Source: an alpha proteobacterium HIMB5 (GTDB lineage Bacteria; Pseudomonadota; Alphaproteobacteria; Pelagibacterales; Pelagibacteraceae). From it: 64,000 bases of DNA. A program made the translations under genes and the position numbers. This document shows positions 6,076-25,931 of this stretch, one piece after another (within the stretch, counting starts at the first letter, position 1; each line of letters begins with the position of its first letter). The notes beneath the pieces are model-generated. The model was not told the origin of the DNA and made no database searches. It saw nothing but the letters and a program-made list of their open reading frames with translations. The stretch lies in NCBI GenBank assembly GCA_000299095.1, contig CP003809.1:806001-870000 (forward strand), in the 5' to 3' direction.

Positions 6076-6076
6076 T

Positions 6077-6682: not shown

Positions 6683-6759
6683 GAAAAAGTCTTATACCGA
6701 TAAATTAATATTTTTAAAATATTTAATATAGACAAATATATGCTACATAATCACTACTT

Positions 6760-7227
6760 ATGTTCAAAAAAAGAGAAAATGTTGAGGAAATAGAAGAAGG
6801 AAATCTTCTTTCACCAAAATTCGATAATGACGGATTAATTCCAGTCATTACTATGTGTGCTAAAACTAAAGATATTCTAATGCATGGTTATATGAATGTT
6901 GAGGCATTTCAAAAAACAATAGAAACTAAAGAAGCTCATTATTTCAGTAGATCAAGAAAAGCTATTTGGCATAAAGGTAAAACAAGTGGTTTTGTTCAAA
7001 AAGTTACAGAGATCAGAATTGACGATGACCAAGACTCGGTTTGGCTTACAGTAGATATTGGAGAAGGTGCAAGTTGCCATGTTGGATACCGTTCATGTTT
7101 TTATAGATCAATTCCTTTAGGTCCAATTGATAATGCAAGAAAAATTGAAATGAAATTTCTTGAAGATGAAAAAAAATTTGATCCTGAAGAAGTTTATAAA
7201 GGTCAACCTAATCCAACAAAAATTTAA
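6760..7227 (+). CDS. hisI: Phosphoribosyl-AMP cyclohydrolase
   Basis: 155 residues. It catalyses the third step of histidine synthesis, hydrolysing phosphoribosyl-AMP. The acidic metal-binding stretch IDDDQDSVW (about 87-95) and the zinc cysteines in GASCHVGYRSCFYR (Cys106, Cys113) identify the family. The HisE pyrophosphohydrolase domain is not fused, so it must be encoded elsewhere. It begins MFKKRENVEEIEEG and is divergent from folE. The stop overlaps the next ATG by one base. Confidence 0.93.
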   Translation: MFKKRENVEEIEEGNLLSPKFDNDGLIPVITMCAKTKDILMHGYMNVEAFQKTIETKEAHYFSRSRKAIWHKGKTSGFVQKVTEIRIDDDQDSVWLTVDIGEGASCHVGYRSCFYRSIPLGPIDNARKIEMKFLEDEKKFDPEEVYKGQPNPTKI

Positions 7228-7601
7228 TGTCAGAAAAACAAAAAAATGTTCTTGGAGAAGAACTTGAGGATTGCTCACAAGATCCACTAACAGGTTGGTA
7301 TAGAGATGGATGTTGTAACACTGATGACAATGATCGTGGTGTTCACACTGTTTGTGCAAAAGTTACAACTGAATTTTTAGAATGGTGTAAAGAAGCTGGT
7401 AATGATTTAATTACACCTCATCCAGAATTTGGGTTTCCAGGATTAAAAGATGGAGATGGATGGTGTGTTTGTGCAACTTGGTATGCACGAGCAGTTGAAG
7501 CTGGTAAAGGTTGTCCAATTAAATTGAAAAGCACTCACGAGAATACATTAAAACTAATTCCAATTGAAACTTTAAAAAAATTTGCAATAGATCTTTCTTA
7601 A
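7227..7601 (+). CDS. DUF2237 family protein
   Basis: 124-residue cytoplasmic protein starting MSEKQKNVLGEEL. It is rich in conserved Cys, Trp and Gly: GWYRDGCCNTD, TPHPEFGFPGLKDGDGWCVC and WYARAVEAG. This matches the DUF2237 family, a small widespread family with no established function as far as I recall. It is translationally coupled to hisI (TAATG) and converges on the ETF-QO gene, whose stop is four bases away. The pairing with hisI may be simple compaction. Confidence 0.8.
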   Translation: MSEKQKNVLGEELEDCSQDPLTGWYRDGCCNTDDNDRGVHTVCAKVTTEFLEWCKEAGNDLITPHPEFGFPGLKDGDGWCVCATWYARAVEAGKGCPIKLKSTHENTLKLIPIETLKKFAIDLS

Positions 7602-7608
7602 AGATCTA
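7588..7608. terminator. 9-bp hairpin between convergent genes, weak bidirectional terminator candidate
   Basis: TAGATCTTT and AAAGATCTA pair across a three-base loop and span the two stops. There is no good T-run on either side, so factor-independent termination is doubtful. Confidence 0.3.
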
Positions 7609-9225
7609 CATATTTCCATACTTAGGACCACCACCACCTTCAGGAGTTACCCAAGTAATATTTTGAGACGGTTCTTTTATGTCACATGTTTTGCAGTGAA
7701 TACAATTTTGAGAATTGATGACAAATTTATTTATATCTCCTTCCTTTTGAACTTCATAAACACCAGCTGGACAATATCTTTGTGCAGGCTCATCAAATTT
7801 TTCTAATGTATATTTTATGGGTAATTCTGGATCTTTTAATTTTAAATGAACTGGCTGATTATCTTCATGGTTAGTACCAGTTAAATATACTGAACTTGTT
7901 TTATCAAATGTAATAACATTATCAGGTTTAGGATAATCAATTTTTGGCATTTCATTAGCTGGTTTTAAAGTTTCGTGATCTGCATGCTTATGTTTAAGAG
8001 TAAAGGGTAATTTACCTCTAAATAAAATTTGATCTATACCTGTAAAAATTATACCTAAAATTAATCCCCAGCTAAAACTTGGTTTTACATTTCTTGCTCT
8101 AAACAATTCTTCATGCAACCAACTATTTTTAAATCTTTCCTCAAAACTAGATAAATCTTTATTTTCTTTTAAATGATCAACTATTGTTTCAGCTGCAATC
8201 ATCCCACTTTTCATAGCAGTATGAGATCCTTTTATTTTTGGCATATTTAATGTTCCAGCATCACAACCGACTAATAATGCTCCTGGCATAAACATTTTTG
8301 GTAAACTTTGAAAGCCACCTTCAATTAATGCTCTTGCTCCATAAGAAATTCTTTTTCCACCCTCAATTATTTTTTTTATTGCTGGATGGGTTTTAAATCT
8401 TTGAAATTCATCAAATGGTGAAAGATGAGGGTTTTTATAATCTAAACCAATAACATAACCTAGAAACACCTGTTTATTTTCTGCATGATACATAAAACTT
8501 CCACCGTAAGTGTTATTATCTAAAGGCCAACCTGCTGTATGCATAACCAAACCTTCTTCATGAGTTTTTTCGCTTACTTCCCAAATTTCTTTAAAACCAA
8601 TTCCATATTGTTGGGGATCTTTACCTTTATTTAATTCAAATTTACTTATTAATTGTTTTCCTAAATGGCCTCTACACCCTTCTGCAAATACTGTTACTTT
8701 TCCATGTAATTCCATACCAGGTTCATAGCTGTCTTTTTTATTACCTTCTCTATCTATACCCATATCTTGAGTAGCAACGCCTTTTACAGAACCATCATCA
8801 TTATAGAGAATTTCACTTGCTGGGAAACCTGGGAATATTTCAACACCTAAAGCTTCTGCTTGTTCTGCAAGCCATCTACATAAATTAGCTAAGCTAATAA
8901 TATAATTTTTATGGTTCTGCTGTACCGATGGTAATAACCATGTAGGCCAACTAATTGATTTTTCTTTTCCTAAAAATAAAAATTTTTCCTTACTTACTTT
9001 AGTTTTGATAGGTGAATTTAATTCTTTCCAATTTGGCAAAAGCTCATCTAAAGCTCTAGTTTCAAAAACATTTCCACTTAAAATATGTGCTCCAATTTCT
9101 GAAGCCTTTTCTAAAAGACAAACGTTCAGATTAGAGTCTAATTGTTTAAGTTTGATTGCTGTAGCTAATCCTGATGGTCCTCCACCAATAATTACAACAT
9201 CATATTCCATCGACTCTCTTGTCAT
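7606..9225 (-). CDS. etfD: Electron transfer flavoprotein:ubiquinone oxidoreductase
   Basis: 539 residues. The enzyme takes electrons from reduced ETF and passes them through FAD and a [4Fe-4S] cluster to ubiquinone at the inner membrane. The N-terminus carries the FAD fold YDVVIIGGGPSGLATAIKL; the C-terminus has CIHCKTCDIKEP plus an upstream RYCPAG cysteine that together provide four cluster ligands. GYVIGLDYKNPHLSP and RALIEGGFQSLP are typical. Either the first Met or Met6 (MEYDVVII) could be the start. It is the last gene of a DMGDH-etfB-etfA-etfD operon, which explains how methyl-oxidation electrons reach respiration. Confidence 0.94.
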   Translation of the reverse strand: MTRESMEYDVVIIGGGPSGLATAIKLKQLDSNLNVCLLEKASEIGAHILSGNVFETRALDELLPNWKELNSPIKTKVSKEKFLFLGKEKSISWPTWLLPSVQQNHKNYIISLANLCRWLAEQAEALGVEIFPGFPASEILYNDDGSVKGVATQDMGIDREGNKKDSYEPGMELHGKVTVFAEGCRGHLGKQLISKFELNKGKDPQQYGIGFKEIWEVSEKTHEEGLVMHTAGWPLDNNTYGGSFMYHAENKQVFLGYVIGLDYKNPHLSPFDEFQRFKTHPAIKKIIEGGKRISYGARALIEGGFQSLPKMFMPGALLVGCDAGTLNMPKIKGSHTAMKSGMIAAETIVDHLKENKDLSSFEERFKNSWLHEELFRARNVKPSFSWGLILGIIFTGIDQILFRGKLPFTLKHKHADHETLKPANEMPKIDYPKPDNVITFDKTSSVYLTGTNHEDNQPVHLKLKDPELPIKYTLEKFDEPAQRYCPAGVYEVQKEGDINKFVINSQNCIHCKTCDIKEPSQNITWVTPEGGGGPKYGNM

Positions 9226-9248
9226 GAGATAATTTTGTACAGGATTTG

Positions 9249-10202
9249 TTATTTTTGTATAGTGTTTAATTTGTTCAATTCTTCTAAGAATTGAGGAAGC
9301 GCTTCAAATAAATCTGCTTCTAAACCATAGTCGGCTACACTGAAAATTGGTGCTTCACCATCTTTGTTGATTGCAACTATAATTTTACTTTCTTTCATTC
9401 CGGCTAAATGTTGAATTGCGCCTGAAATACCAACTGCAATATATAAATCTGGAACTACTACTTTTCCAGTTTGTCCAACTTGATGATCATTACTTATATA
9501 GCCTGCATCTACAGCAGCTCTTGATGCTCCGATTGCTGCATTTAGTTTATCAGCTATTGCTGTAATAAGTTTAAAGTTATCTCCATTCTGCATTCCTCTT
9601 CCTCCAGAAACAACAACTCTAGCTGTTCCAAGTTCAGGTCTATCAGATTTTATTTCTTCTCTTTTAACAAATTTTGTAGATGCAAATTCATCACTTGGAT
9701 CAACTTTTTCAATTGGAGCTGAGCCACCGCTTGTTTCACAAGGATCAAAAGAAGTTGGTCTAATTGTTACACATTTTTTTGGGTCATTGCTTTTAACTGT
9801 TGCAAATGCATTACCTGCATAAATAGGTCTTAAAAAAGTATCTGCGGAAATAACTTTAGTTATATCGCTAATCTGAGATGTATCTAAATTTGCTGCTATT
9901 CTTGGCATTAAATTTTTTCCAAACGTATTAGCTGAACAAACAATGTGAGAATAATTTTCAGCTAATTTAATTACAACTGGTGCAAAATTTTCTGCAACAA
10001 AATTTTCATAATATGGTGCTTCGACAGTTAGAACTTTCTTAACCAAAGGTAACTCGGATAAAGCTTTTGCTGCATCTGCAGAATTATTTCCTATAACTAA
10101 AGCATGAACATCTGCATCAATTTGTGAAGCAGCTGTTACTGCGTTTAGAGTAAAAGGTTTAAGTTCTTTGTTATTATGTTCAGCTATAAGTAAAACCGCC
10201 AT
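9249..10202 (-). CDS. etfA: Electron transfer flavoprotein alpha subunit
   Basis: 317 residues. EtfA holds the FAD of the ETF heterodimer. The C-terminal FAD domain is visible in VVVSGGRGMQNGDNF, GASRAAVDAGYI and GQTGKVVVPDLYIAVGISGA; the N-terminus [15 protein letters not shown] is typical. It overlaps the etfB stop by one base, allowing equal expression of the two subunits. Its position directly after a dimethylglycine dehydrogenase-type gene makes that enzyme the likely electron donor. Confidence 0.95.
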   Translation of the reverse strand: MAVLLIAEHNNKELKPFTLNAVTAASQIDADVHALVIGNNSADAAKALSELPLVKKVLTVEAPYYENFVAENFAPVVIKLAENYSHIVCSANTFGKNLMPRIAANLDTSQISDITKVISADTFLRPIYAGNAFATVKSNDPKKCVTIRPTSFDPCETSGGSAPIEKVDPSDEFASTKFVKREEIKSDRPELGTARVVVSGGRGMQNGDNFKLITAIADKLNAAIGASRAAVDAGYISNDHQVGQTGKVVVPDLYIAVGISGAIQHLAGMKESKIIVAINKDGEAPIFSVADYGLEADLFEALPQFLEELNKLNTIQK

Positions 10203-14485: not shown

Positions 14486-14683
14486 ATGGAAAATTACTAT
14501 GTAATTGAAGGTGATCATGTTGATCCTAACGATATAAAATCAATAAAAGAAGATACAAAAAACCAACATGGCCCTTTTGCTAAAGATAAAGCAGAAGATT
14601 TTGCAAAGAGTTTAATTCAAAAAAATATTGATAATTTTTATCACCGAGCTTGGGTCGTGGATTCAAATAACCTGACTAAATAA
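14486..14683 (+). CDS. Small conserved-looking hypothetical protein, 65 residues
   Basis: Begins MENYYVIEGDHVDPNDIKS; it is hydrophilic and includes HGPFAKDKAEDFAKSLIQ and NFYHRAWVVD. A Shine-Dalgarno-like AAGGA lies five bases before the ATG, which supports translation. There are no transmembrane segments. It is divergent from the flavodoxin-fold gene across 29 bases and its last 43 bases overlap the 3' end of the convergent YeeE/YedE gene. I do not recognise a family; the compact fold-like composition suggests a real protein. Confidence 0.6.
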   Translation: MENYYVIEGDHVDPNDIKSIKEDTKNQHGPFAKDKAEDFAKSLIQKNIDNFYHRAWVVDSNNLTK

Positions 14684-15063
14684 AACCCAATAAACATCGA
14701 TATAACAAAAGTAATTGAGTAATAATTAATTAGAGCAATTGAAGAAATTGCTGGACCTGGACATAGACCACCAAGCCCCCAACCTGCTCCAAAAATTACT
14801 GATCCTAAAATCAATTTTTTATTTATCTCTTTATTATTTGGAATATTGAATGAAACTTCACATATAGGTTTTTCTTTATTTTTTATAAGATGGAATAAAG
14901 GTGAAGATACCGCTAAAGCTCCTATCATTACGAAAGCTAATGAAGGATCCCAATTACCAAATAAATTTAAAAAACCTAAAACTTTTTCAGGATTAATCAT
15001 TTCACTTATAACCAAACCTATTCCAAAAATAATTCCTGAAACTAATGAAATAACTCTAGTCAT
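14641..15063 (-). CDS. YeeE/YedE family transporter, second half (PmpB-like)
   Basis: 140 residues with about four membrane segments. GAGWGLGGLCPGPAI carries the conserved cysteine of the family, and INPEKVLGFLNLFGNWDPSL is typical of the DUF6691/PmpB half. YeeE/YedE proteins move sulfur compounds such as thiosulfate across the inner membrane using conserved Cys residues. The preceding gene encodes the matching half with a four-base overlap, so the two together form one transporter. The 3' end overlaps the convergent small gene by 43 bases. Confidence 0.8.
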   Translation of the reverse strand: MTRVISLVSGIIFGIGLVISEMINPEKVLGFLNLFGNWDPSLAFVMIGALAVSSPLFHLIKNKEKPICEVSFNIPNNKEINKKLILGSVIFGAGWGLGGLCPGPAISSIALINYYSITFVISMFIGFYLVRLFESTTQAR

Positions 15064-15479
15064 ACAAAATTTTTAATTAAAACTGTTAAAATTCCAACAA
15101 CCATAAAAGTTATGGTTGCTATAATTGATCTTAAAGAAAATCTGCCAATTCCACTAATACCATGTCCGCTTGTACAGCCTCCACTTATTCTTGTCCCAAT
15201 ACCAACTAATAATCCTGCTACAATTAATAAAGGTAAAGAATTTGAAATTGAAATATTAATTTCTTTATTTGAAATTAAAGCATATAGAATTGGACCTATA
15301 ATTAAACCTACTAAAAATAAAATATTATCAATTCTTCTTTCTTTTTGATTTAAAGCATTAGCTGCAATTCCACTAATTCCAACTAATCTTCCATTAAATA
15401 AGAATAAAATTACTACAGCTAAACCTATAATTATTCCTCCAATCAATGCAGAATAAGGCGTGAAATTTACTATTGTCAT
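15060..15479 (-). CDS. YeeE/YedE family transporter, first half (PmpA-like)
   Basis: 139 residues, four hydrophobic segments. LFNGRLVGISGIAAN and GTRISGGCTSGHGISGI are the diagnostic family motifs, the latter with the conserved Cys. It forms a split transporter with the next gene. A sulfur-compound cargo is family inference; no sulfur-oxidation gene is adjacent. It overlaps the CoA-binding protein stop by one base and is part of a run of four coupled genes (enoyl-CoA hydratase, CoA-binding protein, two transporter halves). Confidence 0.82.
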   Translation of the reverse strand: MTIVNFTPYSALIGGIIIGLAVVILFLFNGRLVGISGIAANALNQKERRIDNILFLVGLIIGPILYALISNKEINISISNSLPLLIVAGLLVGIGTRISGGCTSGHGISGIGRFSLRSIIATITFMVVGILTVLIKNFV

Positions 15480-15919
15480 TAATTATTTAAAACTGGAAAC
15501 GCTTGTCTGATTTTAAGAAAGTGTTTTTGGTATTCCATTTTTGTACATCGGTTTTCAATATACTCAATATTGTTTTTTGAAGTAATACTTTTAGCTTTCT
15601 CACATTTAATACCAAGTTGGAGCCATAAAGTTTTTGCTTTTATTTGTACAGTTTCATTTGCAAAACCTTCTGCTTCTTTGGAAGGCCTGAAAACATTAAC
15701 TATATCAACTTGTTCTTTTATTTCATTTAAACTTCCCACAAACTCCTCACCTAATACTTTCTCACCTTTAGATCGTGGGTTTACAGGAATAACTTTAAAT
15801 CCATATTCTTGCATATATTTCATAACTATAGTCGAAGTTTTACTTGTATTTTTGCTAACTCCAATCATTGCAATTGTTTTAGAATTTGACAAAATTTCTT
15901 TTATTTTTTCATCTGTCAT
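15479..15919 (-). CDS. CoA-binding domain protein (YccU-like)
   Basis: 146-residue single Rossmann-type CoA_binding domain. TIAMIGVSKNTSKTS opens the fold, with VIPVNPRSKGEKVLGE and VDIVNVFRPSKEA following, as in stand-alone YccU/YneT-like proteins. The role of this family is not well defined. It sits between an enoyl-CoA hydratase and a split YeeE/YedE transporter, with one-base overlaps on both sides. Confidence 0.85.
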   Translation of the reverse strand: MTDEKIKEILSNSKTIAMIGVSKNTSKTSTIVMKYMQEYGFKVIPVNPRSKGEKVLGEEFVGSLNEIKEQVDIVNVFRPSKEAEGFANETVQIKAKTLWLQLGIKCEKAKSITSKNNIEYIENRCTKMEYQKHFLKIRQAFPVLNN

Positions 15920-16692
15920 TATCTATTTTTCCAAACAGGTTTTCTTTTTTGAAGAAATGCAGAAATTCCTTCTTGTGCATCCATTGCCATCATATTTAAA
16001 GTCATCATTTTACTCGTATAAGCATAAGCTTTACTTAATGGCATTTCTAATTGTTTATAAAAAGCTTGCTTACCAATTTTAATTGTAAGATTAGATTTTG
16101 AGGCAATTTTTTTAGCAACTTTTAAAACTTCATTGTTTAATTTTGATTTAGCAAAACAGTCATTAATTAAACCTAATTCTTTTGCATAATCTGCTTTAAT
16201 CGGTTCCCCAGTTAATAACATTTTCATCATAGGTTTTCTTTGAATTTTTCTGCTAACCGCAACCATAGGGGTACTACAAAATAATCCTATGTTTACTCCT
16301 GGTGTTGCAAACAACGCATCTTTTGTACTGTAAGCTAAGTCACAACTTGCAACCAATTGACATCCTGCAGCATAAGCAGCACCATGGACTTTGGCAATAA
16401 CAGGTTTTTTTCCTTCAACAATTTGCAACATCAATTTTGAACAAAGATTAAATAACTTTTGATATTTATTTTTAACTTTTAGACTTTTGACTTCTTTTAA
16501 ATTATGCCCTGCACTAAAACCTTTGCCAGCTCCTTCTAAAATTATAACCTTAGTTTTTTTATCTTTATCAAGCTTCTTAAATACTTTGATTAAATCACTT
16601 AAATTTTTAAACGATAAAGAGTTATAAGTTTTTGGTTCATTGATAGTAACTAAGGCAATACTGTTTTGAATAATCTTATATTTAATATTCAT
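15919..16692 (-). CDS. Enoyl-CoA hydratase/isomerase family protein
   Basis: 257-residue crotonase-fold protein. The oxyanion-hole stretch GAGKGFSAGHNLKEV and the GAAYAAGCQLVASCDLAY helix are present, as is GVNIGLFCSTP. The AGHNLKE form resembles ECHDC3-type members more than classic FadB/EchA hydratases, where Glu residues do the hydration, so the reaction is uncertain. It starts a four-gene coupled run and is separated by 48 bases from the enolase-superfamily gene upstream. Confidence 0.82.
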   Translation of the reverse strand: MNIKYKIIQNSIALVTINEPKTYNSLSFKNLSDLIKVFKKLDKDKKTKVIILEGAGKGFSAGHNLKEVKSLKVKNKYQKLFNLCSKLMLQIVEGKKPVIAKVHGAAYAAGCQLVASCDLAYSTKDALFATPGVNIGLFCSTPMVAVSRKIQRKPMMKMLLTGEPIKADYAKELGLINDCFAKSKLNNEVLKVAKKIASKSNLTIKIGKQAFYKQLEMPLSKAYAYTSKMMTLNMMAMDAQEGISAFLQKRKPVWKNR

Positions 16693-16740: not shown

Positions 16741-17844
16741 TTAATCAAGAATAACAGTAGGTTTTCCTAATATATTTAAGTCTGGTTCAACTCCTAAACC
16801 TATACCATCTGGAGCTGAAATTTTTCCTTTATTTCTAGTAGGTCCATTTTTATCCAGTCTTGGAGAAACATAACCAGATAAGTCACAAACATTTAGTAAT
16901 CTCGAAGGTTCGCAGCTAGTGCCTAGATGTAATAATGCTGAGGTTGTTATGTCACTTCCCCAAGTATCTTCAATACACATCTTAGTTCCAAAATAATTAC
17001 AAAGCTCTCTTGCATATCTTACTGCGCTCACTCCACCAAATTTAGAAAGTTTCAGTGCAGCTACATCCATAATTCCTTTTTCATGTCCTTCTAAAAGAGT
17101 TTTTGTATCATAAACTCCTTCATCTAATTTCATCGGAAGACCTGTTGCTTGTTTTACTAAAGCACACTCAGATAAGGTAACACAAGGTTGTTCTAGCATA
17201 ATATCTAAATGAGCTACAGCTCGACTTGTTCTTATTGCATCAAGTGGTGTTGCTCCGCAATTCCAATCACCATAAACTAAAAAACCATCATCAATAACTT
17301 CTCTAATTTTAATCAATCTTTCAGTGTCAATTCTCCAATCATTATCAACACCAAGTTTAACTTGAAACTGAGTTATACCTTCTTTTTGTTTTTCCTTTGC
17401 AATTTTAACCATTTCATCTGGAGCAATACAAGTTATGGAATGATATAAAGGCATGTCTTTTTGTTTTTGACCACCAAGTAATTTATATAAAGGTAAATTT
17501 GCAACTTTTGCTGTGATATCCCATAACGCAATATCCAAAGGTGATTTTGCATAAGGATGCCCTTGTAAATATTTATTTACCTTTGCCATCAACGCCTCTG
17601 GTCCAACTGGATCAGATCCTATAATTACAGGTGCTATCTCGGTCAATGCAGGAGTTATTCCTTTAGCATATGCTGGCAAATAATGAGGAATCGGACAACA
17701 TTCACCCCAACCTTTAATGCCACTATCAGTATCTACTGAGATAATTATACTCTCTACTTCATCACAAGTTTTATTACCTGCCATATAATATGTTTCATGA
17801 CTTTTCAGATTAATATTCCAAATTGATAATTTAGTTATTTTCAT
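16741..17844 (-). CDS. Enolase-superfamily enzyme (MR/MLE branch; possible betaine epimerase)
   Basis: 367 residues. The N-terminal capping domain contains GIKGWGECCPIPHYLP. The barrel has metal ligands Asp193 (VYGDWNC), Glu218 (LEQPC) and Asp241 (KLDEG), and general acid/base lysines Lys163 (FQVKLG) and Lys265 (ALKLSKFGG). The first lysine motif is QxK instead of the common KxK. Lysines facing each other across the barrel support 1,1-proton transfer (epimerisation) or dehydration. Length and the two lysine positions recall 4-hydroxyproline-betaine 2-epimerase, but that is from memory. It is last in a five-gene overlapping operon whose other members do not match the known betaine cluster. Superfamily call is firm; substrate is open. 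Confidence 0.85.
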   Translation of the reverse strand: MKITKLSIWNINLKSHETYYMAGNKTCDEVESIIISVDTDSGIKGWGECCPIPHYLPAYAKGITPALTEIAPVIIGSDPVGPEALMAKVNKYLQGHPYAKSPLDIALWDITAKVANLPLYKLLGGQKQKDMPLYHSITCIAPDEMVKIAKEKQKEGITQFQVKLGVDNDWRIDTERLIKIREVIDDGFLVYGDWNCGATPLDAIRTSRAVAHLDIMLEQPCVTLSECALVKQATGLPMKLDEGVYDTKTLLEGHEKGIMDVAALKLSKFGGVSAVRYARELCNYFGTKMCIEDTWGSDITTSALLHLGTSCEPSRLLNVCDLSGYVSPRLDKNGPTRNKGKISAPDGIGLGVEPDLNILGKPTVILD

Positions 17845-19061
17845 AATTTACCAACTCTCTTTGCAACACCTTCTTCTTGTTTTTTATTAAAATCATTATC
17901 ATTTAATTTATACAATTCTTCAATTCTCAAATTTTTAGTATTAATTGATGGTAAATTATTTTTTTTCATTCCTTGGTGTCTTGCATATACTGCTTGTTTT
18001 TTTGTTGTTTGATGAGGTTGAAAATCTTTTATATCATCAATAGTTATTTGATCCCCTTTCACAAGATATCCATTTTCAACAGCTTCATTAAAAATTTTAA
18101 TTCCTTTTTTTGTTCGCATTACTGCAGCATTGAAACCTTCATCTTCTCCTTTTGGAGAACCGCCCCTCCAGGTATCAAGTGCTGCTATATCTGCACTTTC
18201 ACCAATTGCATCTGGACAAATTTTACATCTAAAAGGAACTTTCCAATTACTTTCATCTCCCCAGAATGAATTATAATCTTTATCAAACTCTTTTTGATCT
18301 TTAGTTTTTATATACATTCTACCTGGATTTCCAAAACCTCTATACCTAAACTCCTCAAGCTCTTGTTCTTTAACATTAAAACTATCAATAAATTCTTGTG
18401 ACTTTGTTAATTCTTGAAAACCACCACAAACTAATGTGAAAATATATTTGCAATATTGATCAACTCGTTCATCGAATTTAGCAAGTAATCTTATTGCTCC
18501 TGCATCACAAGGTTTTCCAACAAATGCGAAAGTTTGTTTTTTATCCAATGCTTTATGGAATTTACTCAAAGGTGATGATGGACCATATCTTGATCTACTT
18601 TCACAATTTAATAAGTCATCTTTGGAATAGCTATATTTAACAACGTTACGCATTGGGTTTTCCTTATCACCAGCTGTATGCATAATAAAATCAACTTTAT
18701 TTTTTTCTAGCAAATATAAAGATAATCCATTTAACAACCCTCCTGTTGAACTTTGAAATCTAATTTTTGGATCGCTAGACCATGAATAATATAAACTAAA
18801 ATAATTTCCCCAGATAATATCTTTATTTGATCCTTCGTTTTCCTCTTGATCCTCTGGTCCTTCTGCAATTACCCCTGGACAAACTTTTTTAATATTTTCA
18901 AATGTTTGATTGCTAATAGATTTTAATTCTTTAGGTTCTAAATTACCTTTGTCACTCATTTCCATCTTTAGTGAATTATTACCTGCAATACTTTTGCAAA
19001 GTCCGCAGCCAATACAAAGGCCATTGTCTACAATGTCAGCTAAAGAATTTATTTGTATCAT
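17841..19061 (-). CDS. Coenzyme F420 hydrogenase/dehydrogenase beta-subunit family iron-sulfur protein
   Basis: 406 residues. The N-terminus has CIGCGLC (about 16-22) and a later VCPG cysteine, forming one [4Fe-4S] site. The FrhB-like core includes SSTGGLLNGLSLYLLE, CESRSRYGPSSPL, VGKPCDAGAIR and FRCKICPDAIGESADIA. Members of this family move electrons between flavin, iron-sulfur centres and organic substrates; several act on sugar- or amide-like compounds rather than F420. There is no sign that this organism makes F420. It overlaps the aldolase stop by one base and the enolase-superfamily start by four, so it belongs to the same pathway. Confidence 0.8.
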   Translation of the reverse strand: MIQINSLADIVDNGLCIGCGLCKSIAGNNSLKMEMSDKGNLEPKELKSISNQTFENIKKVCPGVIAEGPEDQEENEGSNKDIIWGNYFSLYYSWSSDPKIRFQSSTGGLLNGLSLYLLEKNKVDFIMHTAGDKENPMRNVVKYSYSKDDLLNCESRSRYGPSSPLSKFHKALDKKQTFAFVGKPCDAGAIRLLAKFDERVDQYCKYIFTLVCGGFQELTKSQEFIDSFNVKEQELEEFRYRGFGNPGRMYIKTKDQKEFDKDYNSFWGDESNWKVPFRCKICPDAIGESADIAALDTWRGGSPKGEDEGFNAAVMRTKKGIKIFNEAVENGYLVKGDQITIDDIKDFQPHQTTKKQAVYARHQGMKKNNLPSINTKNLRIEELYKLNDNDFNKKQEEGVAKRVGKL

Positions 19062-19792
19062 TACTCTTTGTAAGATGGATCTTTAGCATCACACCTTCTT
19101 AGTAATGCTGGCCACTCATTTAATCCTGGTGAAAATAAATCATACTGTTTTTGAGATAATTTCCACATTTCCTCAGTAGCTCTCTCAAGAGGCAAACCTG
19201 AACTTGTTGCTTGAATAGCAACTTCACACATTCTAATTGCATAATACATATTCATAAAAGCTTCACCGGCTGTAGCTCCAACAGTCAATAATCCATGGTT
19301 CTTCATGATTAAAACTTTGTTGTCTCCCATGTTTTCTGCAATTCTAACTCTTTCATCTTTGTTTATCGATAAGCCTTCCCATTCATGATATCCAACTTTT
19401 CCATAAAGCATTGAACTATCTTGAACTAAATGAGGAATACCGTCTTTAAGAGCTGTAGCAGCTAATGCTGAAGGTGGATGAGCATGAAATACAAATTTTG
19501 CATTAGGATGATTTAGATGAATTGCACTATGAATAATAAATCCTGCAGTGTTTGCTTTTTCTGGTCCCTCTAAAACTTTTCCATGTTCATCAACTTTAAT
19601 TAAGTTTGACGCTTTAACTTCTTCATACAACAAACCCATCTCATGCATAAAGAATGTATGATCTGTTCCTGGTGCTCTGGCAGTTATATGGTTCCAAACA
19701 GTATCATCCCAACCCATCATATTAGTCAATCTAAACATGGCTGCAAGATCTACTCTTACTTTCCAGTCTGCTTCACTGATGTTATTTTTCAT
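19061..19792 (-). CDS. Class II aldolase/adducin family protein
   Basis: 243 residues. Zinc ligands are seen in FHAHPPSALA and in MKNHGLLTVG; TARAPGTDHTFFMHEMGLLYEEV is a family-typical start of the active-site region. Members cleave or decarboxylate small hydroxy-acids and sugar phosphates (fuculose-phosphate aldolase, oxo-tetronate-phosphate decarboxylase) or act in other ways. It is coupled to a beta-hydroxyacid dehydrogenase, a pairing familiar from tetronate catabolism (dehydrogenase plus decarboxylating aldolase), but the expected sugar-acid kinase is missing. Exact reaction unknown. Confidence 0.82.
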   Translation of the reverse strand: MKNNISEADWKVRVDLAAMFRLTNMMGWDDTVWNHITARAPGTDHTFFMHEMGLLYEEVKASNLIKVDEHGKVLEGPEKANTAGFIIHSAIHLNHPNAKFVFHAHPPSALAATALKDGIPHLVQDSSMLYGKVGYHEWEGLSINKDERVRIAENMGDNKVLIMKNHGLLTVGATAGEAFMNMYYAIRMCEVAIQATSSGLPLERATEEMWKLSQKQYDLFSPGLNEWPALLRRCDAKDPSYKE

Positions 19793-20688
19793 CTTCCCTC
19801 CTTTGAAAAAGTTAATTTATTATTTTGTTCTAAAAGTTTAATTACTTTTAAGTGATTAGAATTAGGTCCAAATTTTTTAATAGCTTTTTTATAAATTTTT
19901 GATGTTAAATTCATTATTGGTAGATCTAATTTTTGTAATTTAATTATTTCATTAGCAAGATTTAAGTCTTTCATCGATAAACCTAAAAAGAATGAAGGAT
20001 CATAGTCACCATTAATCATATTTGGTCCATATCTTGTGGATGTATAACCGCCACTTGCGCTCTTATCTATAATCTCCAACATAGTTTTTGGTTTAATACC
20101 TGATTTTACTCCAAGCATTAGAGACTCCGAAAGGGAAAGATAATTCAAATAGCAAAGGCTTACTTGAGCAATTTTAGCAGCATAACCTGCTCCAGCTGTA
20201 TTTAGATAATAAAGATTTTTGCCTAAAATATTGAAAATAAATTTAAGCTTATTTACTGTTTTTTTTTGGCCTCCCACGAATATGGATAGATCTCCTGATT
20301 GAGCTTTTAAATTTCCACCTGATATTGTGGCATCAACAAATTGATTGATTTTTCTCTTAAGTTTTTTTTTCAAAAAATTGAAACAACTAAGAGAATTAGT
20401 TGAACAATCTATCCAAACTTTATTTTTGTCTAATTGATCAATAATTTTATTTTTTCCTACTGATAATAATTTTATTTGTTTGGGTCCAGGTACACAGCTT
20501 ATTATGATGTCAGAAAAATTAATCAACTCTTTCAAAGAGTTAGTTGCTTTTGCTTTTTTTGATTTAAATTTTTGAATTGTTTTTTGACTAACATCATATC
20601 CTAATAAATCAATTTTTTTTGATTTATGAAGATTTAAAGCCATCGGCATTCCCATATTACCTAAACCAATAAAGCCTACTTTAATCAT
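19789..20688 (-). CDS. NAD(P)-dependent beta-hydroxyacid dehydrogenase (3-HIBDH/6PGDH-like)
   Basis: 299 residues. The Rossmann motif VGFIGLGNMGMPMALNL opens the chain, followed by SDIIISCVPGP, a substrate loop ISGGNLKAQSGDLSIFVGG and GAGYAAKIAQ with the catalytic lysine. The usual Asn four residues after that Lys reads Gln/Val here (KIAQV), which is a departure from the KxxN pattern. These enzymes oxidise small 3-hydroxyacids such as 3-hydroxyisobutyrate, tartronate or threonate. Four-base overlap with the aldolase gene and one-base overlap with the oxygenase gene tie it to the operon. Confidence 0.85.
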   Translation of the reverse strand: MIKVGFIGLGNMGMPMALNLHKSKKIDLLGYDVSQKTIQKFKSKKAKATNSLKELINFSDIIISCVPGPKQIKLLSVGKNKIIDQLDKNKVWIDCSTNSLSCFNFLKKKLKRKINQFVDATISGGNLKAQSGDLSIFVGGQKKTVNKLKFIFNILGKNLYYLNTAGAGYAAKIAQVSLCYLNYLSLSESLMLGVKSGIKPKTMLEIIDKSASGGYTSTRYGPNMINGDYDPSFFLGLSMKDLNLANEIIKLQKLDLPIMNLTSKIYKKAIKKFGPNSNHLKVIKLLEQNNKLTFSKEGR

Positions 20689-21533
20689 TAATCTACCAAA
20701 TCATCATCACGTTTTTTATTTCTTTCATAATGAATAGGCATTGCTCTACCATAAACAATCTTTGAATGTGCAGGGGTGTTAACTCTCCAGCTATCCAAAA
20801 CATAAGTTGGTAAAGCAATGTAACGAGTTGTGTTACCTTTAATTTTCGTTACGCGATGCATTGAAAATCTTCCTTTAAAAATTTGAAGATCACCTTCTCC
20901 TAATTTTAATACTCTCACTTTTTCTCTATCACCATTTAAAACTCTTTTGACCTCTTCAAATTTATTGTCACTTGGAGCTCTTAGATTTGGAACATATTCA
21001 AAATCTCCTCCTTCATCTGCTTTTTTTACTAAAATACTTAAAGTAAATTCATTACTATCAAAATGCCAAGGTAGTGTGTGCCCTGGATCCATGCAGTTAT
21101 AAGGATTTCTACCTAATGGATCTGCCCATTGAAAAATAGGTTTAACTCCTAGACAATCTGAAACAAAATCTTTTAATTCGTCAGTTTCGTAAATATATCT
21201 TAAATCGCTATCATCACTCAAAACATCAGAATTCAAATAACCATTTTTTCTCTCATTAAATGTATTTATTGGATGATCTTTTTCATATTGATCATCTTTG
21301 ACACTAAAATATGGATTATGACTTTCATCTGACCAATAGATATGTTTTCGTCTTGCTATAACCTCCTTAAACATTTTATCAAGAGACTCTTGTTTGATAA
21401 AATTTGGAATTTTACAACAACCAACTTCATCAAGTTCATTTTTATAATGAGAAATCATTTCCTTACGTTCTTTTGAATGAACGTCGTGAATTGGATATCT
21501 TTTTAAATCTACTATTTCTTCTAATTTATTCAT
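20688..21533 (-). CDS. 2-oxoglutarate/Fe(II) oxygenase of the HalD/PhyH type
   Basis: 281 residues, cytoplasmic. The facial triad is His157-x-Asp159 (WHFDSNEF) and His226 (SMHRVTKIKG), with Arg237 placed to bind 2-oxoglutarate. GGDFEYVPNLRAP and LNGDREKVRVLKLGEGDLQI recall the HalD/BesD-like family of PhyH-related enzymes that act on free small molecules. Asp159 is kept, which argues for hydroxylation, not halogenation (halogenases replace it with Gly). It is the first gene of the operon, with a purine-rich GGAGGAAAATG start. Its product may be the hydroxy compound that the dehydrogenase and aldolase then process; substrate unknown. Confidence 0.78.
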   Translation of the reverse strand: MNKLEEIVDLKRYPIHDVHSKERKEMISHYKNELDEVGCCKIPNFIKQESLDKMFKEVIARRKHIYWSDESHNPYFSVKDDQYEKDHPINTFNERKNGYLNSDVLSDDSDLRYIYETDELKDFVSDCLGVKPIFQWADPLGRNPYNCMDPGHTLPWHFDSNEFTLSILVKKADEGGDFEYVPNLRAPSDNKFEEVKRVLNGDREKVRVLKLGEGDLQIFKGRFSMHRVTKIKGNTTRYIALPTYVLDSWRVNTPAHSKIVYGRAMPIHYERNKKRDDDLVD

Positions 21534-21580: not shown

Positions 21581-21724
21581 TTACAGTTTGGTAGGAGTAG
21601 AAAAATTTAAATGATTTTTACAATCTGTCTTTTCAAGTAATAATGAGAATAATTTTGAGGATAGTTTAGAACCTAATCCAACTCTTGCAAGTCTATGATG
21701 GTGAGTCGATAAATTAAAATTCAT
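21581..21724 (-). CDS. Possible 47-residue protein, unrecognised
   Basis: ORF in the 246-base gap between the oxygenase operon and the nucleotidyltransferase gene. It begins MNFNLSTHHHRLARVG and ends FSTPTKL, is basic and has no obvious membrane segment. No Shine-Dalgarno sequence is clear. It is the only sizeable ORF in the largest gap of the window. It could instead be a leader or an untranslated RNA. Confidence 0.3.
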   Translation of the reverse strand: MNFNLSTHHHRLARVGLGSKLSSKLFSLLLEKTDCKNHLNFSTPTKL

Positions 21725-21779
21725 AAGATTACGTTATTATATTTTAATTCTTTGGTAAATATAAATTATACAGAGTGAT

Positions 21780-22151
21780 CTAAAGTTTTCCTTCTTCTCT
21801 CATTTTGGCTCTAATCTTGGTAGCTGAGATTTTTTGAACTTCTTCAGACAAAACAATTTCCTCAATCTTGTAACCAACACCTCTTCCATAACAAATATTC
21901 GTAATATTTGGTACTAACATGATTTTAAATCTACCCTCAAACTCAGGATTAAGTCTTTCTTCTATATTTTTTTTAACTGTTTCAAAATCAAAAGGATTAT
22001 CATCAACCCCTTGAACATCTCTAATTTGAATACAAACTTGACCAGTTTTTTTTATAATTTCTTTAAATAAAGTGTAATGGCCATCATGAAAAGGTTGCCA
22101 TCTTCCTAACATTTGTGCAGTTGGTTTTTTATTGTCCCATTCGTAAGCCAT
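21780..22151 (-). CDS. Cytidylyltransferase-like nucleotidyltransferase
   Basis: 123 residues. The HxGH nucleotidyl-transfer motif appears as HDGH (His22-His25) in GRWQPFHDGHYTL, and the second signature ISATKIRAKM lies at 108-117 (family ISxTxxR). Such enzymes join a nucleotide (CMP or AMP) to a phosphorylated small molecule. The preceding gene is an APS-kinase-like P-loop kinase overlapping by one base, so kinase then nucleotidyltransferase may make a nucleotide-activated compound. The substrate is not known. It ends the Rieske operon. Confidence 0.8.
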   Translation of the reverse strand: MAYEWDNKKPTAQMLGRWQPFHDGHYTLFKEIIKKTGQVCIQIRDVQGVDDNPFDFETVKKNIEERLNPEFEGRFKIMLVPNITNICYGRGVGYKIEEIVLSEEVQKISATKIRAKMREEGKL

Positions 22152-22558
22152 TATTTTATCTCCTTTAATATTTTTGGTGCCCAGTTTTTAGCATCTTGTG
22201 TTGTTACATGAAAGTCAAACTTGTCAGGTTTCACAAACATTTTGTTTGTATCATCAAATCTCCCTTCTTTTATTGTATCTACCCAAATAACAAAATCAGC
22301 TGGAAATAATTTTCTTGCTTCTGGTGTTGGGCAAATAAAATCTGCAACTACATTATTTCCATTTTCTCTCATCTTTAGAGCAAAGTCAGCCATTCTTTTT
22401 GATTGTCTTTTTCTTCCTTCCTCTGAAAAATCCCAATCATTAGCCTCTCTTCTAACTTCATCTGCATTAAGTCTTTTTGCATTTAGCAATGGTGCTAATT
22501 CATTAGCTAAAGTTGTTTTTCCCGATCCTGGAAGACCCATGATTAAAATTATTTTCAT
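22151..22558 (-). CDS. P-loop kinase, APS-kinase-like
   Basis: 135 residues. Walker A GLPGSGKTT at 8-16; then RLNADEVRREANDWDFSEEGR and NNVVADFICPTPEARKLF, which follow the layout of adenylylsulfate kinases (DxxR, F-I-x-P). It is shorter than a true CysC and no ATP sulfurylase is near, so phosphorylation of some small alcohol other than APS is more likely. ATGA overlap with the Rieske gene upstream and one-base overlap with the nucleotidyltransferase downstream. Confidence 0.75.
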   Translation of the reverse strand: MKIILIMGLPGSGKTTLANELAPLLNAKRLNADEVRREANDWDFSEEGRKRQSKRMADFALKMRENGNNVVADFICPTPEARKLFPADFVIWVDTIKEGRFDDTNKMFVKPDKFDFHVTTQDAKNWAPKILKEIK

Positions 22559-23763
22559 AGTAAATTAGTTGCAACCCACTTATGAAATTGATGTGTTGGT
22601 TGATCCATAACTGGAGAAAAATTTCCACCATTATATACTGGTGAATTTCTACCCTCTTGCATTCCTTCTATAGCTTTTATGTCTTCTATCATTACATCTT
22701 TCCAAAATCTTGAATTTTCTTTTCTTAATTCTTTAAGTTCTTCACCGTTAGCACTTTCATTTCCTACATAATACATTTGCATATGTTCACGAGTTTTATT
22801 CATAGCTAAAGGCTCTAACCAATAAACGTAAAAATGATCTATGTGTAAACCTATCATTACATTAGGGAACAATGCTATATATTCTGAATTCTTAAGTTTT
22901 GTTTTGTCCCAATTAGGGAAAGTGTCAAACTTTTTGTTACCTTTTACAGGTTGTTCGTATTTTTTACTTCCTTGACCTGCAAATCTATTTGGCAAACCTT
23001 GAATATGATAATGATCATTAATATTTGAAACTTTATTTAATTCAGGATGAATTGTTGGTAAATGATAACTTTCACAATAATTTTCTATTGCAAACTTCCA
23101 ATTACAATTAACGTCTAAATTAAAATAACCATAATCATTAGAATGAACGATTAATTTTTGGTCATCTTTGTTGATAAAACTAGACCATCTAGCTTCGAGA
23201 GGTTTAATATAATCATCAAATTCTATTTCATTAGAATTGATATTTACAAAAATTATATCCATCCAAACTTTAGATTTTACCTCTTTTAAATTACTTTTAT
23301 TTTTATCGAATTTTTCTGATTGGTGGTTATTAAGACCACCAATATGTGGAGTTGCAATTAGGTTTCCTTTAAAATCATAAGACCAAGAATGATAAGGGCA
23401 CCTAATCACATTTTTTAAAGTACATGGATTATCAACAAGCTTAAATCCTCTATGGCTACATACATTATGAAATACTTTAATATCCATATCTTTGTCTCTT
23501 ACCAAAATCAAAGGAATTCCAAGCAGATTATATGGTCTAGCATCTCCTGGGTTTGGAATTGAGCTTGCGACACCTATTACAATCCATTTATTACAAAAAA
23601 TTTTTTCTCTTTCGTAATATAAATAATCAGCATTTGTGTAACATTCATTAGGGAGGCCATTTGCATTCTCAATTGGCATGTCTACATTTTTAAGCTTATC
23701 AATTTCCAAAATTCTTGAGAGGGTTGAATTTGTGAATTTCTGAGACATAGAAAAAATTACCAT
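22555..23763 (-). CDS. Rieske non-heme iron oxygenase, alpha subunit type
   Basis: 402 residues. The Rieske [2Fe-2S] ligands are Cys102-x-His104 (CSHRG) and Cys122-x2-His125 (CPYHSW). The catalytic iron ligands are His234 and His239 in ENYCESYHLPTIHPE. The bridging residue three before His234 is Glu231, where most ring hydroxylases have Asp; Glu here is a trait of oxygenases acting on quaternary ammonium compounds (carnitine, glycine betaine, stachydrine types). A betaine or N-methyl demethylation role is therefore plausible. No reductase gene is in the window. Start may be Met6 (MSQKFTN, at 23748). It heads a coupled operon with a kinase and a nucleotidyltransferase and diverges from a MetF/GcvT pair. 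Confidence 0.82.
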   Translation of the reverse strand: MVIFSMSQKFTNSTLSRILEIDKLKNVDMPIENANGLPNECYTNADYLYYEREKIFCNKWIVIGVASSIPNPGDARPYNLLGIPLILVRDKDMDIKVFHNVCSHRGFKLVDNPCTLKNVIRCPYHSWSYDFKGNLIATPHIGGLNNHQSEKFDKNKSNLKEVKSKVWMDIIFVNINSNEIEFDDYIKPLEARWSSFINKDDQKLIVHSNDYGYFNLDVNCNWKFAIENYCESYHLPTIHPELNKVSNINDHYHIQGLPNRFAGQGSKKYEQPVKGNKKFDTFPNWDKTKLKNSEYIALFPNVMIGLHIDHFYVYWLEPLAMNKTREHMQMYYVGNESANGEELKELRKENSRFWKDVMIEDIKAIEGMQEGRNSPVYNGGNFSPVMDQPTHQFHKWVATNLL

Positions 23764-23812: not shown

Positions 23813-24580
23813 TTGACAGAGATTTTCAAAAAAGATACGAGTCGGGGAAGAATGAATTTTTCTTTAGAAATTGGTCCTCATACGGATCTTAGCACTCTTC
23901 CTGCTGTGAAGGATGTTTACGTAACACTATTGCCTGGAGGAGACTATAAAGAGACAGCAAAAAAATCAGGAGATTTAGTTAAAGAGGGTTTTAACCCTGT
24001 TCCACATGTTCCAGCTCGTTCAATAAGCAACGATGAAGAGCTAAAAGATTATATGAATATGTGTAAAGATTTAGGAGTTAAACAAGCTTTAGTAATTGGT
24101 GGAAGTAGAGAACCAATTGGAAAATTTGATAGTTCATTTCAAATTCTCGAAACAGGATATTTAGAAGGAATTAAAATTGGAATAGCAGGACACCCTGAAG
24201 GAAGCCCTGATATTTCTGACCAAGATTTAGAAAAAGCAATGATAGATAAAAAGCCTTATGCTGATTATATTGTAACCCAATGGTTATTAGATACTCAGCC
24301 TATTATTGATTTCATTTCTAAACAAAGCGTACCAGTGCATGTTGGAATTACTGGGCCCATGAAAATTTCAAGCTTAATAAAGTTTGCAAATATCGTTGGT
24401 GCGAAAAATTCCATTAACTTTCTTAAATCTAATTTTAGTAAGGCGTTAGATTTATTAAAACCTAAAGACCCTAATGATTTAATTGGGAAGGTTAAATCGC
24501 ATACTGATAACTTCCACATTTATACATTCGGCGGCTTGAAGGAAACAAACAAGTGGTTGAAGGAGAACAAATATGTCTAA
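23813..24580 (+). CDS. Methylenetetrahydrofolate reductase-like protein (MetF family)
   Basis: 255 residues, somewhat shorter than canonical MetF (about 290). NFSLEIGPHTDLS holds the conserved Glu of the active site near residue 20, then VPHVPARSISND, QALVIGGSREP, IGIAGHPEGSPD and VPVHVGITGPM follow the MetF barrel. Start codon is TTG, giving M in the product, just after an aaatgaatttc leader. It overlaps the next gene, a GcvT-like methyltransferase, by eight bases. The likely job is to oxidise 5-methyl-THF made by that enzyme to methylene-THF, as in the LigM/MetF arrangement known from lignin-degrading sphingomonads. Confidence 0.82.
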   Translation: MTEIFKKDTSRGRMNFSLEIGPHTDLSTLPAVKDVYVTLLPGGDYKETAKKSGDLVKEGFNPVPHVPARSISNDEELKDYMNMCKDLGVKQALVIGGSREPIGKFDSSFQILETGYLEGIKIGIAGHPEGSPDISDQDLEKAMIDKKPYADYIVTQWLLDTQPIIDFISKQSVPVHVGITGPMKISSLIKFANIVGAKNSINFLKSNFSKALDLLKPKDPNDLIGKVKSHTDNFHIYTFGGLKETNKWLKENKYV

Positions 24581-25931
24581 AGAGTTCGATTACGACAAAG
24601 TAAGGCATGTAACGTCAGTAGATCAGTCTGACAGAAAGGTACCATATAACTTAAGACAAAGTGGTCCTACTAAAGTAGAAATGTTAATATCAACGAGAGT
24701 AAGAAAATCTCCATATTGGCATTTATCAATGAAAGCAGGTTGTTGGAGAGCAACTGTTTACAATCGTATCTATCACCCAAGAGGATATGTAAAACCAGAA
24801 GATGGTGGTGCAATGGTTGAGTATGATGCAATTGTAAATCACGTAACAATGTGGAACGTAGCTGTAGAAAGACAAATTCAAGTTAAGGGTCCAGATGCAG
24901 AAAAATTTGTTGATTACGTAATCACAAGAGATGCAACTAAGATCTCACCTATGAGAGCTAGATATGTAATTCTGTGTAATGCTTATGGGGGAGTTCTTAA
25001 TGACCCAATCCTTTTAAGAATTTCTGAAGATGAGTTTTGGTTCAGTTTATCTGATAGTGATATTGGAATGTATCTGCAAGGAGTGAATGCAGATGGAAGA
25101 TTTAATGTCGATATAAATGAAATCGATGTCAGTCCAGTTCAAATTCAAGGTCCAAAATCAAAAGCATTAATGAAAGATCTTTGTGGAGATCAAGTTGATT
25201 TTGATGACATGCCATTCTACGGTTTAGCTTCTGCTAAAGTTGGAGGAAGAAATGTTATTATTTCTCAATCTGGTTTTTCTGGAGAAGCAGGATATGAAAT
25301 TTACCTAAGAGACTCTACTTTATATGCTGAGGATATGTGGAATGCTGTTCTTGATAAAGGTAAAGCGCATAACTTAATGGTTATTGCACCAGCTCACCAT
25401 AGAAGAATTCAAGCAGGAATTCTTTCATGGGGTCAAGATTTAGATCAACAGCACAATCCTTTTCAATGTAACTTAGGTTATCAAGTTTCATTATCTGGAA
25501 AAGGTGAATGGAAAAAGAAAGGTGATTATGTTGGAAAGGCTGCTCTCGAAAAAATGGGAGCTGATCTTAAAGCAGGTAAAAAACCATACAAACTTCAGTT
25601 AGTTGGTCTTGAGCTAGGTGGAAAACCTATTGAAGAATACGCTCCTGATTTTTGGTTAATATCAAATGCAGATGGTGGTGATCCAGTTGGTTTTGTTACC
25701 TCTCCTTGGTATCACCCTGAGAAAAAACAAAATATCGCAATGGGATATGTACCTTTTGATGGAACATTAAATGCTAATGGCTTTCCAAAAGGTAAATTAG
25801 GTACAAAGTACAAAATACATTTACCTGACCAATATGCAGACAAACCAGGTCAACCTGTAGATGCTGTAGTCGTTGATATTCCATTTAAAGAATCTTACAA
25901 CGCAAATACAAGAGAAGTTGTAAAAGGTTAA
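24573..25931 (+). CDS. GcvT/DmdA/LigM-like tetrahydrofolate-dependent demethylase
   Basis: 452 residues. A GcvT fold is seen from VAVERQIQVKGPDAEKFVDY through ISQSGFSGEAGYEIYL to NPFQCNLGYQVSL. SDSDIGMYLQG resembles DmdA, but the chain is some 80 residues longer than DmdA and has inserts (GGDPVGFVTSPWYHPEKK), closer in size to the O-demethylase LigM. Such enzymes move a methyl group from S-, N- or O-methyl compounds to tetrahydrofolate. Eight-base overlap with the MetF-like gene implies a joint methyl-transfer and oxidation step. Substrate unknown; a betaine or methoxy compound is possible given the divergent Rieske gene. Confidence 0.8.
   Translation: MSKEFDYDKVRHVTSVDQSDRKVPYNLRQSGPTKVEMLISTRVRKSPYWHLSMKAGCWRATVYNRIYHPRGYVKPEDGGAMVEYDAIVNHVTMWNVAVERQIQVKGPDAEKFVDYVITRDATKISPMRARYVILCNAYGGVLNDPILLRISEDEFWFSLSDSDIGMYLQGVNADGRFNVDINEIDVSPVQIQGPKSKALMKDLCGDQVDFDDMPFYGLASAKVGGRNVIISQSGFSGEAGYEIYLRDSTLYAEDMWNAVLDKGKAHNLMVIAPAHHRRIQAGILSWGQDLDQQHNPFQCNLGYQVSLSGKGEWKKKGDYVGKAALEKMGADLKAGKKPYKLQLVGLELGGKPIEEYAPDFWLISNADGGDPVGFVTSPWYHPEKKQNIAMGYVPFDGTLNANGFPKGKLGTKYKIHLPDQYADKPGQPVDAVVVDIPFKESYNANTREVVKG

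Follow-up and report, generated by a model that had tools for sequence, protein, structure and literature searches.

A putative SAR11 catabolic cassette joining an exchangeable HalD-family hydroxylase with dehydrogenase, aldolase-fold and FrhB-like genes

Introduction

What does a SAR11 bacterium do with an oxygenase, a dehydrogenase, an aldolase-fold enzyme, an iron-sulfur flavoprotein and an enolase-type enzyme packed into one operon? The question is raised by five minus-strand genes at positions 16741–21533 of a 64,000-nucleotide stretch of the alphaproteobacterium HIMB5 (contig CP003809.1, positions 806,001–870,000), which is termed the window here. The window comes from a complete chromosome of 1,343,202 bases and its closest relatives in the sequence collections are Pelagibacteraceae (SAR11). 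A large part of the marine turnover of dissolved methylated amines and betaines is due to SAR11 bacteria, and for many of these compounds we know of no catabolic route.

The answer favored here is that the operon is a SAR11 catabolic cassette which would feed a methylated or cationic amino-acid osmolyte of the betaine class into neighboring demethylation and one-carbon pathways. The probability of this reading is put at roughly 45%. The cassette consists of a 47-codon gene, the oxygenase gene HalD, a HIBADH-type dehydrogenase gene, an aldolase-fold gene (AldII), an FrhB-like gene and an optional enolase-type gene. A first-pass annotation made from the sequence alone had described the five larger genes as a catabolic operon; it was silent on the exchange of the hydroxylase and on the place of the operon inside a methylated-amine region.

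Gene order, spread and exchange of the hydroxylase

The five open reading frames overlap successively by 1, 4, 1 and 4 bp, and the end-to-end overlaps reported in the first-pass annotation are correct. Its family assignments hold as well, with every product scoring above the curated Pfam cut-off. HalD (20688–21533) matches PF23169 at 47.3 bits (cut-off 26) and HIBADH (19789–20688) displays the NAD_binding_2 and NAD_binding_11 domains. AldII (19061–19792) matches Aldolase_II PF00596 at 142 bits (cut-off 22). The FrhB-like protein (17841–19061) has both Pfam domains of the FrhB family, with FrhB_FdhB_C at 96 bits (cut-off 23), and the enolase-superfamily enzyme of the MLE type (16741–17844) matches MR_MLE_C at 109 bits (cut-off 29). 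There is one Aldolase_II gene and one HalD gene in the whole genome.

The order HalD-HIBADH-AldII-FrhB is found in at least 10 SAR11 genomes, i.e. that of the window and L071, L072, L074, L076–L080 and G020 (L029), in a scan of named genomes that covers the best 80 of 372 loci. In GC-rich loci genes were called as the longest frames and labeled by BLAST against annotated references. Codon changes relative to locus L033 are mostly synonymous in HIBADH and FrhB, and in AldII there are 83 synonymous and 2 non-synonymous codon differences, the strongest constraint in the set. Because the same order of four genes is found in nine further SAR11 genomes and the codon changes are mostly synonymous, the operon is more than a chance arrangement; a scattering of the genes among relatives, which the first-pass annotation had considered, is not seen. 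The enolase-type gene directly follows FrhB in L080 also (88% identical), thus the five-gene form is present in 2 of at least 10 cassettes. The operon stands as one conserved unit, but the enolase-type gene is an optional last addition and the 47-codon gene, which is first in the operon, had been overlooked.

Compared with other cassettes, the window HalD is 56% identical, AldII is 99% identical, and HIBADH and FrhB are 86–90% identical. When aligned with L033 in 100-base bins, HalD shows 53–81% identity, the small-gene bin 80%, and the HIBADH, AldII and FrhB bins 71–93%. A quick tree of HalD sequences, in which the window row is on a long end branch, places the window copy (clade III) with L036 and L037, which belong to a different family of the order, and apart from the HalD copies of the other cassettes (98% SH-aLRT). 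Going by these identities and the tree, the hydroxylase is evidently exchanged in the window cassette.

The chromosomal slot of the window cassette, bordered by kinase-like and nucleotidyltransferase-like genes on one side and by enoyl-CoA hydratase (ECH) and CoA-binding protein genes on the other, holds a single clade-I HalD in many relatives. In four genomes, examined on their own coordinates, the cassette is found elsewhere than in this slot. Judged by these comparisons, the cassette is a mobile, laterally exchanged unit inserted in a conserved slot. Carriage by phage is rejected, as relatives of AldII and HalD are absent from viral contigs. Among 197 genomes of the order, 41 are HalD-positive and nine have a cassette-type FrhB (at least 64% identity), all nine being HalD-positive; related genomes are not independent, so such co-occurrence counts are not probabilities.

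The 47-codon gene is at positions 21581–21724 on the minus strand. Its amino acid sequence is 75–85% identical to copies that precede HalD in other cassettes. The window and L033 sequences differ at 6, 4 and 20 sites by codon position and display no indels, hence the frame behaves as coding. A profile search of the same 197 genomes gives strong matches (E < 1e-29) in exactly five, the window genome included. All five bear the cassette (co-occurrence in 5 of 5), and they are the genomes with an FrhB at least 87% identical to that of the window. Four further genomes show matches at E-values of 0.002–0.01, mostly with stop codons. A copy of about 56% identity precedes the second HalD in L107 and L108. 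The protein has no Pfam match, and its structure prediction gives low-confidence helices only (pLDDT 59).

A promoter-like sequence, TTTAC..TATAAT, is found at positions 21736–21765 on the minus strand. The TATAAT box ends 11 bases 5′ of the ATG of the 47-codon gene with the TTTAC box upstream, and both boxes are kept in aligned cassettes while the flanks diverge; this arrangement suggests that the mRNA may be nearly leaderless. Within the region no consensus match scores higher, but the promoter scan overall is at chance level and such scans alone are not used as evidence. A regulatory RNA in front of HalD is rejected; no Rfam family is found in the window and the conserved leader behaves as coding.

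Predicted enzymes

HalD displays the motif H157-F-D159 together with H226 and R237, all conserved in alignments, and because of these residues it should be a hydroxylase. A halogenase function is rejected, as the motif is of the HxD type and not the HxG of halogenases. The best Foldseek matches of the HalD model (pLDDT 84) are HalB, HalD, HalA, BesD and a lysine hydroxylase, with a probability of 1.00. The protein shares the Pfam family, the fold and the iron and 2-oxoglutarate ligands with the HalD/BesD lysine and ornithine halogenases and hydroxylases. It differs from these in its HxD type, in having only 13–19% identity to solved members and in being clustered with dehydrogenase and aldolase genes. 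By analogy with this family, the HalD substrate would be a free amino acid or a relative of one, probably cationic.

The HIBADH-type protein has D32 at the position where NAD-dependent enzymes carry an aspartate, and the catalytic K172 is kept. The usual active-site motif of the family is K..NN. The window protein displays KIAQV in its place, as does a 41% identical homologue on a Pseudomonas plasmid.

AldII keeps the HxH motif and the third metal-binding histidine, and a glycine replaces the catalytic glutamate of FucA and YgbL in all cassette copies aligned. Its relatives in the PDB include 3ocr and adducin, which are closer, and NovR (1.2e-21) and TqaM (2e-19). TqaM is described as a non-heme iron oxidative decarboxylase (PMC12192607).

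The first-pass annotation had remarked that the tetronate kinase expected for a dehydrogenase-aldolase pair is missing. The kinase is indeed missing, with no PF07005 domain anywhere in the genome; it is the expectation that fails. HIBADH scores 137 bits against the threonate dehydrogenase model (cut-off 350) and AldII 20 bits against the 3-oxo-tetronate-phosphate decarboxylase (OtnC) model (cut-off 250). Since these scores are far below the cut-offs and the catalytic glutamate is absent, no kinase need be expected.

The FrhB-like protein keeps eight cysteines in the alignment, and in its domains and iron-sulfur cysteines it resembles the F420-reducing hydrogenase/dehydrogenase beta family. It differs from that family in scoring 43 bits against the FrhB equivalog (cut-off 331.5) and in having no hydrogenase partner in the operon. 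A genome search found no CofD, an enzyme required for F420 synthesis. Because CofD is absent, use of self-made F420 is rejected, although F420 could still be taken up, and the protein is presumably ferredoxin-linked. The “F420” label of the first-pass annotation is thus right as to family and misleading as to cofactor. FrhB genes of 30–34% identity are also present in roseobacter polysaccharide loci; these were set aside as a different context.

The enolase-type enzyme, a predicted epimerase or dehydratase, keeps the catalytic lysines K163 and K265, the metal ligands D193, E218 and D241, and W295. Its best NCBIfam model is NF043002, cis-3-hydroxy-L-proline dehydratase, at 330 bits (cut-off 500), and its best PDB match is 4mgg. 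Although both lysines, the metal ligands and W295 are common to this dehydratase and the betaine epimerases (4mgg, 4e8g/4izg/4j1o), the window enzyme differs from them in forming its own orthologous group and in being found in Rieske/demethylase or HalD clusters. It is 38–39% identical to annotated cis-3-hydroxyproline dehydratases, which are located with proline racemase and DHDPS-like genes. An assignment as cis-3-hydroxyproline dehydratase is rejected on the sub-cut-off score, the separate group and the different neighbors.

Gene neighborhoods

The window also encodes trimethylamine monooxygenase (Tmm), sarcosine oxidase alpha and beta (SoxA, SoxB), a DMGDH-like protein with ETF and ETF-QO, a DMSP-demethylase-like GcvT protein and a Rieske oxygenase. 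In nine SAR11 loci a carnitine-dehydrogenase-like enzyme replaces HIBADH, giving the order HalD-AldII-CDH-FrhB, often behind Rieske and DddP-like M24 genes. The replacement is another beta-hydroxyacid dehydrogenase and therefore supports an order of hydroxylation followed by oxidation. Other copies of HalD or HalD-FrhB lie among gamma-butyrobetaine-dioxygenase-like, choline/betaine ABC transporter, SDR, carnitine-dehydrogenase-like and BKACE genes.

Similar surroundings are found outside of SAR11. Pseudomonas MPC6 has HalD, a DddP-like gene and FrhB in one run with a betaine ABC transporter nearby, within a 30-kb stretch (L022) dense in betaine and hydroxyproline-type genes. Caballeronia has HalD, M24 and ProXWV genes in one run. 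In roseobacters, orthologues of FrhB and of the enolase-type gene are in clusters with MurR/RpiR, Rieske, ALDH and FAD-GcvT demethylase genes and in some cases a HemL-like aminotransferase gene; Shimia L147 has both orthologues in one such cluster. Taken together, the neighborhoods favor a betaine or methylated-amine substrate.

The genes next to the cassette, all on the minus strand, were identified by Pfam and by comparison with relatives. Upstream are the nucleotidyltransferase-like gene (21780–22151), the APS-kinase-like gene (22151–22558) and the Rieske oxygenase gene (22555–23763), which have the same slot in relatives. The ECH family gene (15919–16692) and the CoA-binding protein gene (15479–15919) form the downstream border.

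Several other features of the region were observed. The 123 aa nucleotidyltransferase-like and 135 aa APS-kinase-like P-loop genes (21780–22558) have a one-base overlap and are found ahead of HalD in many SAR11 genomes, with 89–97% identity for the former. Within the slot of L032, two large genes at positions 4923–9324 (707 and 750 aa; an autotransporter domain is present in the second) separate the kinase-like gene from the nucleotidyltransferase-like gene, and L110 and L043 have inserts of similar size. Beyond ECH, window positions 14641–15479 (minus strand) contain a Sulf_transp half gene next to a DUF6691 gene where relatives carry other genes (457 and 536 aa). Positions 23813–25931 (plus strand) encode an MTHFR-like protein (weak match) followed by a 452 aa DMSP-demethylase-like GcvT protein, which scores 235 bits against a cut-off of 410 and so is not DmdA itself. 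The 30 kb of L022, from a plasmid of the Antarctic Pseudomonas sp. MPC6, contain two HalD and three MR/MLE genes, BCCT and ProXWV-type transporters, FrhB, RidA and aconitase X. L075 is labeled Lewinella, yet is 87% identical to SAR11 FrhB and is likely a mis-binned contig; L135 (Alphaproteobacteria) and L136 (Anaerolineae) have one common gene neighborhood and are likely mis-binned also.

Discussion

What we infer of the substrate class, the site of hydroxylation, the order of steps and the parts played by FrhB, the enolase-type enzyme and the small gene runs as follows. The HalD-family oxygenase would use Fe(II), 2-oxoglutarate and O2 to hydroxylate the substrate, the probable site being the carbon that is beta to its carboxylate. 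The NAD-dependent HIBADH-type enzyme would then convert the resulting alcohol to a beta-keto acid, and the metal-dependent AldII would cut a C–C bond, where a decarboxylation or O2-dependent cleavage is more likely than a classical retro-aldol reaction. The FrhB-like flavoprotein may link ferredoxin, rather than F420, to an intermediate by electron transfer, and the bond concerned is most likely a C=C or C=N bond. The enolase-type enzyme, where present, may open the route to another epimer of the substrate, or to a hydroxylated relative, through epimerization or dehydration. The sequence of hydroxylation, oxidation and C–C cleavage suggested in the first-pass annotation is supported as the most sensible order.

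Several observations weigh against a cassette for betaine-class osmolytes. The nearest relatives of the window HalD, L036 and L037, adjoin glutamine synthetase III and agmatine-deiminase-like genes and not betaine genes, and these neighbors favor basic amino acids. Standalone cassettes have different positions in the chromosome, outside the methylated-amine region. A carnitine dehydrogenase orthologue is absent from the genome, the best match reaching only 30% along 189 residues within a longer frame, and the cassette itself has no transporter or substrate-specific gene. The FrhB-like protein is without an assigned reaction in such a pathway, and all activities of the cassette are predicted ones. 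If a guess is permitted, a methylated basic amino acid would fit both the betaine and the basic-amino-acid contexts.

A bolder proposal, which is somewhat unlikely, is that the cassette represents a new O2-dependent route by which SAR11, the most abundant bacteria of the ocean, degrade a betaine or a methylated basic amino acid. A conserved HIBADH-AldII-FrhB back end would be fed by exchangeable HalD hydroxylases of differing substrate range; cleavage would be by an aldolase fold without the glutamate, FrhB would work free of F420 in an aerobe, and the 47-residue protein would control or complete the operon.

A specific form of the osmolyte reading, unlikely as it stands, is a methylated-lysine route (trimethyllysine/laminine or lysine betaine), where HalD hydroxylates a methylated lysine or ornithine and AldII cleaves the hydroxylated or oxidized product. 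In relatives with the island genes the fragment would pass through aldehyde dehydrogenase, gamma-butyrobetaine dioxygenase, carnitine dehydrogenase and BKACE to glycine betaine. The HalD-family proteins that match in fold use free lysine and ornithine as substrates, and HalD copies share loci with gamma-butyrobetaine dioxygenase, carnitine dehydrogenase, BKACE, thioesterase and betaine-aldehyde-type dehydrogenase genes; the agmatine-deiminase-like gene beside the sister of the window HalD points the same way. However the genome lacks carnitine dehydrogenase, and AldII is not a pyridoxal phosphate enzyme as are the known 3-hydroxytrimethyllysine aldolases, nor does the known route need a dehydrogenase step.

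A modification or biosynthetic pathway, in place of catabolism, is quite unlikely. The comparable case is the fungal TqaLFM system for aminoisobutyrate synthesis, where a 2-oxoglutarate oxygenase also works with a class-II-aldolase-like enzyme, and AldII, which lacks the aldolase glutamate, is related to its TqaM, described as an oxidative decarboxylase (PMC12192607), and to NovR. TqaLFM however is biosynthetic, has no dehydrogenase or FrhB and is distant in sequence, and the surroundings of the cassette are catabolic throughout, with uptake systems in related loci. The streamlined SAR11 genomes also rarely carry secondary-metabolite genes.

Degradation of cis-3-hydroxyproline or hydroxyproline betaine with the enolase-type gene as key enzyme is very unlikely; the best NCBIfam model, the 4mgg match and the common catalytic residues point to it, but the score is below the family cut-off, the orthologous group and its neighbors are different, and the gene is absent from 8 of 10 cassettes. 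A sugar-acid pathway of the tetronate type (YgbJ/YgbK/YgbL) without its kinase is largely refuted, for although it uses the same pair of HIBADH-type beta-hydroxyacid dehydrogenase and class II aldolase-fold enzyme and enolase-superfamily enzymes are often aldonate dehydratases, the kinase, the model scores and the active-site glutamate are all wanting, the oxygenase and FrhB are additional, and the enolase-type enzyme groups with amino-acid and betaine enzymes and apart from the aldonate dehydratases.

The betaine-class cassette can also be compared with the glycine-betaine/carnitine genomic island of Arctic SAR11 (PMC12421898). Both are mobile in SAR11 and have a class II aldolase and a HIBADH-type dehydrogenase. 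The Arctic island has in addition carnitine dehydrogenase, gamma-butyrobetaine dioxygenase, BKACE and a betaine transporter, and the HalD-FrhB copies of related loci lie among genes of this kind. The gene list of the island, however, is without HalD, FrhB-like and enolase-type genes, and the aldolase of the island type (L031) is about 30% identical to the window AldII.

The view of the first-pass annotation that no described pathway has this gene set is upheld in the open-access literature searched, where no match was found, a published homarine-degradation operon of marine bacteria lying outside the comparison; the literature searched also contains no paper joining F420-hydrogenase-like genes, betaine, Rieske and catabolism. 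If the substrate belongs to a pathway already published, the cassette would be a new member of that pathway. For the methylated amines and betaines turned over by SAR11, a mobile cassette with exchangeable hydroxylases would provide named, testable enzymes of a catabolic route. It would also bring an iron-sulfur flavoprotein of the FrhB type into an aerobic pathway of an organism without F420 synthesis, and the conserved gene for a small protein can be studied in its own right.

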